A program made the translations under genes and the position numbers. From the IMG/VR virus record IMGVR_UViG_3300026478_000590, positions 1 to 21,592 of that record: DNA of 21,592 bases, one strand, 5' to 3'. How positions within the stretch are numbered: the stretch's first letter is position 1; each line of letters begins with the position of its first letter. The notes under the pieces were generated by a model that saw only the letters and a list, made by a program, of their open reading frames with translations, searched no databases and was not told where the DNA came from. This document shows positions 18,048-18,085 of this stretch, one piece after another. This DNA comes from a virus.

Positions 18048-18085
18048 GGGACCATGGCGGAATGGCAGACGCAGCGGACTTAAAA
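18048..18085 (+). other. attP: 5' half of tRNA-Leu(UAA): candidate attP core
   Basis: These 38 bases read as the first half of a leucine tRNA. GGGACCA is the acceptor strand, TGGCGGAATGGCAGACGC the D-arm region with the class II D-loop, GCGGA the anticodon-stem 5' strand and CTTAAAA the anticodon loop with UAA. The sequence then departs from tRNA: the complementary TCCGC strand is absent. T7-like cyanophage P-SSP7 is known to carry part of its host's leucine tRNA near its integrase as an integration site, and this matches in kind. It lies between the lysis and early modules, about 10 kb from int. The tRNA identity is by inspection. Confidence 0.8.

Follow-up and report, generated by a model that had tools for sequence, protein, structure and literature searches.

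A half tRNA-Leu(UAA) gene at 18048-18085 is very probably the attP core with which a T7-like phage, probably a cyanophage, integrates; integration would rebuild tRNA-Leu through an integrase (Int) acting in trans over 10 kb. The half-tRNA stands in a linear, metagenomic virus record from IMG/VR, referred to here as the window (the whole stretch of DNA that was analyzed, 21,592 bases). This is a known attP type in a new layout, and the exchange of the target tRNA seen in relatives was unexpected. The recombination, the repair of the tRNA in vivo and the identity of the host are what we infer.

A single-subunit RNA polymerase, a gp2.5-like SSB and a T7-type large terminase place the window phage among T7-like phages (Autographiviridae type), and its tyrosine integrase is intact, a criterion for the attP of T7-like cyanophages. 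The source is probably a freshwater T7 relative whose host is likely cyanobacterial, and a picocyanobacterial host is suggested because the freshwater Synechococcus phage S-SRP02 and marine cyanophages are relatives. From left to right, gene calls gave tail proteins, Avd, diversity-generating retroelement RNA and reverse transcriptase, integrase (minus strand), a MarR-like protein (minus), an HTH protein, terminase (plus), tail fibre, endolysin (minus), a small ORF, the half-tRNA, RNA polymerase (plus) and the gp2.5-like SSB. No convincing protein family was found for the ORFs tested in the roughly 2 kb from the MarR to the HTH gene (8300-10350). The genes that matter for the argument are listed below.

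6909..7898, minus strand: tyrosine recombinase (integrase), R..HTTRH..GGW..Y motif visible in the translation
7923..8240, minus strand: MarR-like winged-helix gene, which travels with int
17127..17735, minus strand: endolysin (glucosaminidase), left neighbor of the attP region in the window phage
17808..18029, plus strand: small conserved ORF of 73 aa upstream of the core, present in the window clade and in phage S38-C3
18247..20519, plus strand: T7-like single-subunit RNA polymerase (PHROG 414, E 7e-111; Pfam RNA_pol)

As the initial annotation had it, int lies on the other strand at 6.9-7.9 kb (6909-7898, minus) and the polymerase lies to the right of the half-tRNA. The polymerase ORF is open from a GTG at 18165, a doubtful start because relatives have an in-frame stop there (GTGCACAGGTGA in L004 and L009-L011). 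The ATG at 18247 is more likely, judged from this comparison, and would therefore leave about 160 bp of non-coding DNA right of the core. Elsewhere in the window, this T7-like phage carries a diversity-generating retroelement (2554-2698, 2723-3399, and 3405-4379) composed of Avd, a template repeat at about 3125-3250, an Rfam Phage_DGR RNA at 3273-3399, and the reverse transcriptase. Its variable repeat sits at the end of an Mtd-like tail gene, and the differences between the repeats fall at template adenines. A literature search found no paper combining cyanophage, podovirus, and diversity-generating retroelement.

The core and its flanking elements have the following positions.

17954..18047, plus strand: attP left flank, opening with the conserved block GCGTCCACCGGAT (17954), as seen in the alignment and retained in both gene layouts
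18048..18085, plus strand: attP core, the 5′ half of tRNA-Leu(UAA) from the acceptor end to the end of the anticodon loop, sequence GGGACCATGGCGGAATGGCAGACGCAGCGGACTTAAAA
18103..18117, plus strand: accessory motif CACCTGTGCATAGCA at +17 relative to the core, which may be an Int arm site or an operator
18166..18175, minus strand: the motif again in inverted orientation (TGCACTGGTG), conserved and holding its register across the aligned attPs

The half-tRNA begins with the 5′ strand of the acceptor stem (18048-18054), continues through the D-arm and the 5′ strand of the anticodon stem (GCGGA, 18074-18078), and stops at the end of the loop CTTAAAA (18079-18085), within which the UAA anticodon occupies 18081-18083. 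Compared with complete tRNA-Leu(UAA) genes on other contigs, the best match was 36/39 (L108), and at least 36 of 38 matches would be expected by chance within the window about 4e-15 times. ARAGORN called no tRNA anywhere in the window; with the covariance model for tRNA, 18048-18100 reached 9.6 bits, under the cut-off of 29. The sequence, the ARAGORN result and the covariance score thus bear out the original description of a tRNA-Leu(UAA) piece running from the acceptor 5′ strand through the anticodon loop. A complete tRNA-Leu gene was considered and rejected, as the 3′ half (variable arm, T-arm, acceptor) is absent.

Cores of this kind have been described in T7-like cyanophages, in which the attP sites form four motif groups of 39-bp motifs matching the first half of tRNA-Leu (PMC8776855). 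The window core matches the first half of tRNA-Leu over about 39 bp in the same manner, which supports its earlier designation as a candidate attP. The initial annotation's remark that T7-like cyanophages carry such a piece near int agrees with P-SSP7 and S-TIP37, both of which integrate at tRNA-Leu without forming stable lysogens, and in S-TIP37 both int and attP are required for integration (PMC8776855). Those motifs were defined directly downstream of int, whereas the window int is distant, and for the window phage a host match and integration are predictions. In P-SSP7 (a Prochlorococcus phage, Tiamatvirus; AY939843), a tRNA-Leu 5′ half ending at the CTTAAAA loop also stands before a T7-like RNA polymerase gene, in the order int-half-RNAP with a MarR-like gp0.7 preceding int. 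However, the P-SSP7 int is directly upstream of the half and co-directional, while that of the window is 10 kb away on the other strand. A closer relative is S-SRP02 (an isolated freshwater Synechococcus phage; MW822601), which shares a homologous Int (64%), MarR, terL, polymerase, the half-tRNA, and the +17 motif with the window but has a non-inverted layout. The word 'attP' is absent from the published description of S-SRP02.

Dozens of IMG/VR contigs, and S-SRP02 as well, have the same half shortly upstream of their phage RNA polymerase gene. It occupied the same place in 11/11 contigs retrieved through the polymerase (near-identical, or with polymerases 66-69% identical), and in all of them the loop is followed by the changed stretch AGCGC. 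Many further phages with the half emerged from pattern scans and an integrase search, and the polymerase gene comes next wherever the contig extends far enough. A scan with a generic pattern of core plus motif gave no hits, an uninformative outcome since known loci such as L158 contain such sites. Among 22 Leu-type attPs, mean pairwise identity was 94.5% in the half, 44% in the 38 bp to its left, and 55% in the 38 bp to its right. One contig, L006 (G005), begins a few bases before the half-tRNA (window 18042), possibly reflecting an assembly break at sequence shared with tRNA, or a genome end.

To the right of the core, the 15-bp motif was present in 40/40 distinct attPs, with at least 11/15 matches each, at +17 in 38 and at +18 in two. 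Shuffled flanks match the motif equally well in 1.8% of cases, a score that is not independent since the motif was first noticed in these same sequences; the constant spacing is independent. Motifs like CACCCCTGCAGAGCA keep their distance from the loop though the intervening bases are unconserved. Weaker CACCTGTGCA copies, apparently intergenic, occur at window positions 4867, 8274, 9743, 11494, 13986, and 20598. Their presence in non-coding DNA elsewhere raises the possibility that the +17 motif is a phage promoter or a (MarR) operator rather than an Int arm site. Four further T7-like phages (L044, L048, L056, and L097) combine the same half-tRNA with a divergent Int (27-33% identical) and are without the CACC..TGCAGAGCA motif, in place of which L044 and L056 have clusters of GCAACCA-like repeats around the core. 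A consensus search of 17600-18300 gave no sigma-70 promoter and no intrinsic terminator. A conserved RNA hairpin right of the core was also considered and was rejected, its folding being inconsistent among relatives.

These features suggest how integration might proceed. Strand exchange by Int would take place within or next to the 7-bp anticodon loop (CTTAAAA) of a host tRNA-Leu(UAA), a gene expected to start with GGGACCATGGCGGAATGGCAGACGC and to finish with TGGTCCC. At one junction, the host 5′ half would then adjoin phage AGCGCGTTTGATCC, and the host promoter, together with this half, would point toward the polymerase gene of the phage; from this geometry, that gene is predicted to be captured by the tRNA promoter of the host. 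The phage 5′ half, joined to the host 3′ half, would make the tRNA whole again, with transcription coming from the phage side. The need to rebuild a working tRNA would explain why a whole half is kept, beyond the usual requirement of a recombinase core. When this junction was assembled in silico from the phage half and the 3′ half of a complete tRNA, ARAGORN called a tRNA-Leu; attP and the other junction were not called.

The initial annotation had remarked that a core from the 5′ half implies an unusual upkeep of the tRNA, and this view is supported, since the rebuilt tRNA depends on transcription that enters from phage DNA. Bacterial tRNA targets of integrating elements nearly always use their own promoter, and users of the 5′ half such as pTN3 are exceptional (PMC8371274). 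pTN3-like archaeal integrases resemble the proposed system in using a tRNA 5′ half, and there too the element's side drives expression of the restored tRNA. These elements are unrelated, however, and their integrase promoter serves the tRNA, which is impossible in the window since int is inverted away (PMC8371274). In most phages compared, int points toward the restored tRNA, but not in the window clade. There, int cannot serve the restored tRNA, and therefore another phage promoter or a read-through promoter must.

An exact 32-mer from the window, scanned against a species-genome collection, hit 19 loci in Chloroflexi, Acidobacteria, Holophagaceae and other non-cyanobacteria, and none in cyanobacteria. 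The host may be missing from this collection, or the half may have drifted. No integrated copy and no attL/attR junction was found.

The distance between int and the core is accounted for by the layout of relatives. In S-SRP02 and other non-inverted relatives, the order is terL(-), HTH(-), ..., MarR(+), int(+), half-tRNA, RNAP(+), so that MarR-int is directly upstream of the half on the same strand. The window and three other contigs (G006, G007, and G008) instead read int(-), MarR(-), ..., HTH(+), terL(+), half-tRNA, RNAP(+), defining the following block.

6909..13702, no strand assigned: inverted block int(-)-MarR(-)-...-HTH orf10353(+)-terL(+), against terL(-)...MarR(+)-int(+) in other relatives

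The half-tRNA and both of its flanks stayed with the polymerase gene when the block inverted. In G006-G008, the endolysin gene (minus) remains left of the block, as would be expected had the stretch between endolysin and attP simply been inverted. In the RNAP tree, the phages with the inverted layout cluster together (100/100 support), and one inversion therefore suffices, its direction being read from a tree without independent rooting. By comparison of these sequences, the 10-kb separation is a clade-wide segmental inversion of terL..MarR-int, with no sign of a different attP. The block would have inverted in the ancestor of the clade, leaving attP beside the polymerase gene and Int to act in trans. 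The inversion also explains why the window attP does not pass the 'directly downstream of int' filter of the published survey. The inversion junctions contain no core-like sequence over background, and inversion mediated by Int is accordingly unsupported.

Two other explanations of this separation were weighed. First, a chimeric contig could make int and attP look distant, and the window is indeed a linear metagenomic record; yet the same order recurs in G002 and, at 67-71% identity, in G006, G007, and G008, so an assembly artefact is already refuted and keeps a negligible probability. Overlapping contigs extend this picture. Window 5598-21592 equals G002 1-15995 (99.95%), and G001 spans from the end of G002 to window position 1 with about 15 bases between, closing a circle of about 44.3 kb, a composite map drawn from different records. 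The join of late and early modules that the initial annotation perceived at the half-tRNA is therefore real, and the map fits a permuted, terminally repeated or circularized genome. Terminal repeats, which the same annotation proposed seeking at 17740-18160, could not be demonstrated; a search of 17735-18260 gave just a 19-nt pair of 74% identity, not counted as a terminal repeat. G001 is 99.9% identical to the window right of 15461 but, left of it, only 72% along part of the tail-fibre gene, which makes it the same phage with a variant tail fibre.

Second, the half could be a relic, an ancestral leftover in a phage that, with int inverted away, has lost integration or has switched to a different site close to int. 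The position of int, 10 kb off on the opposite strand, would agree with this, as would the lack of an exact match to the window half in sequenced cyanobacteria. So would S38-C3 (L033/L141), a phage of inverted layout whose Int is divergent (38%) and whose polymerase has no half-tRNA nearby, and in which integrase and attP were perhaps exchanged jointly. We nevertheless consider a relic unlikely, because half, motif, and flanks are kept in every member of the window clade despite polymerases just 66-70% identical, Int is intact and 71% conserved across the clade, and no tRNA-like core adjoins int. Outside the core region, nothing in the window matches it better than 24/43, a background level, and the better attP beside int that would have displaced this one was not found.

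The half itself differs between near-identical phages. L158 and L159 encode Ints that are 99.4% identical and have closely similar DNA on both sides of the core, yet they carry different tRNA halves: a Leu(UAA) half in L158 (10970-11002) and the half of a CAU-anticodon tRNA (GGGGGTCTAGCTATCTGGTGAAAGCAGCGGACTCATAA) in L159 (about 11340-11380). Both halves have GCAGCGGACT and the +17 motif. The CAU half also occurs in a second group (L163, L180, L183, and kin; L164, L179-L188) elsewhere in the RNAP tree. Since near-identical Int and flanks carry halves of different tRNAs, the half behaves as a target match. It looks like a unit exchangeable from acceptor to anticodon arm, a target-and-repair piece and not a tRNA gene or RNA.

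This exchange bears on whether the fragment might instead be a transcribed RNA element, such as a tRNA-half decoy or a leader of the polymerase mRNA, and no attachment site. In favor of this, it shares its strand with the polymerase gene, whose likely start comes about 160 bp later, and in the window the sequence immediately to its right folds better than shuffled versions do (z -3.2). Such a role is nonetheless highly improbable given that another tRNA's half replaces it in near-identical phages, that downstream folding varies among relatives (z -2.7 to +1.3), and that the comparable site of S-TIP37 is needed for integration (PMC8776855).

A more tentative proposal concerns the attP core. The half could be a portable cassette, swappable for the half of another tRNA that shares the anticodon arm (GCAGCGGACTnAnAA) while Int stays unchanged. 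With the half-tRNA constantly placed just before the polymerase gene, integration would also set this gene directly behind the promoter of the host tRNA; lytic transcription might restart as a result, which could account for phages that integrate but do not lysogenize. This comparison touches on why T7-like cyanophages integrate without forming stable lysogens. The comparison yields a defined attP (core, fixed-spacing motif, and flanks), a clade in which int is uncoupled from it, and a natural swap of target with the same Int. With these, one can directly test the rule of target choice and what follows when a host tRNA promoter stands ahead of the polymerase gene.
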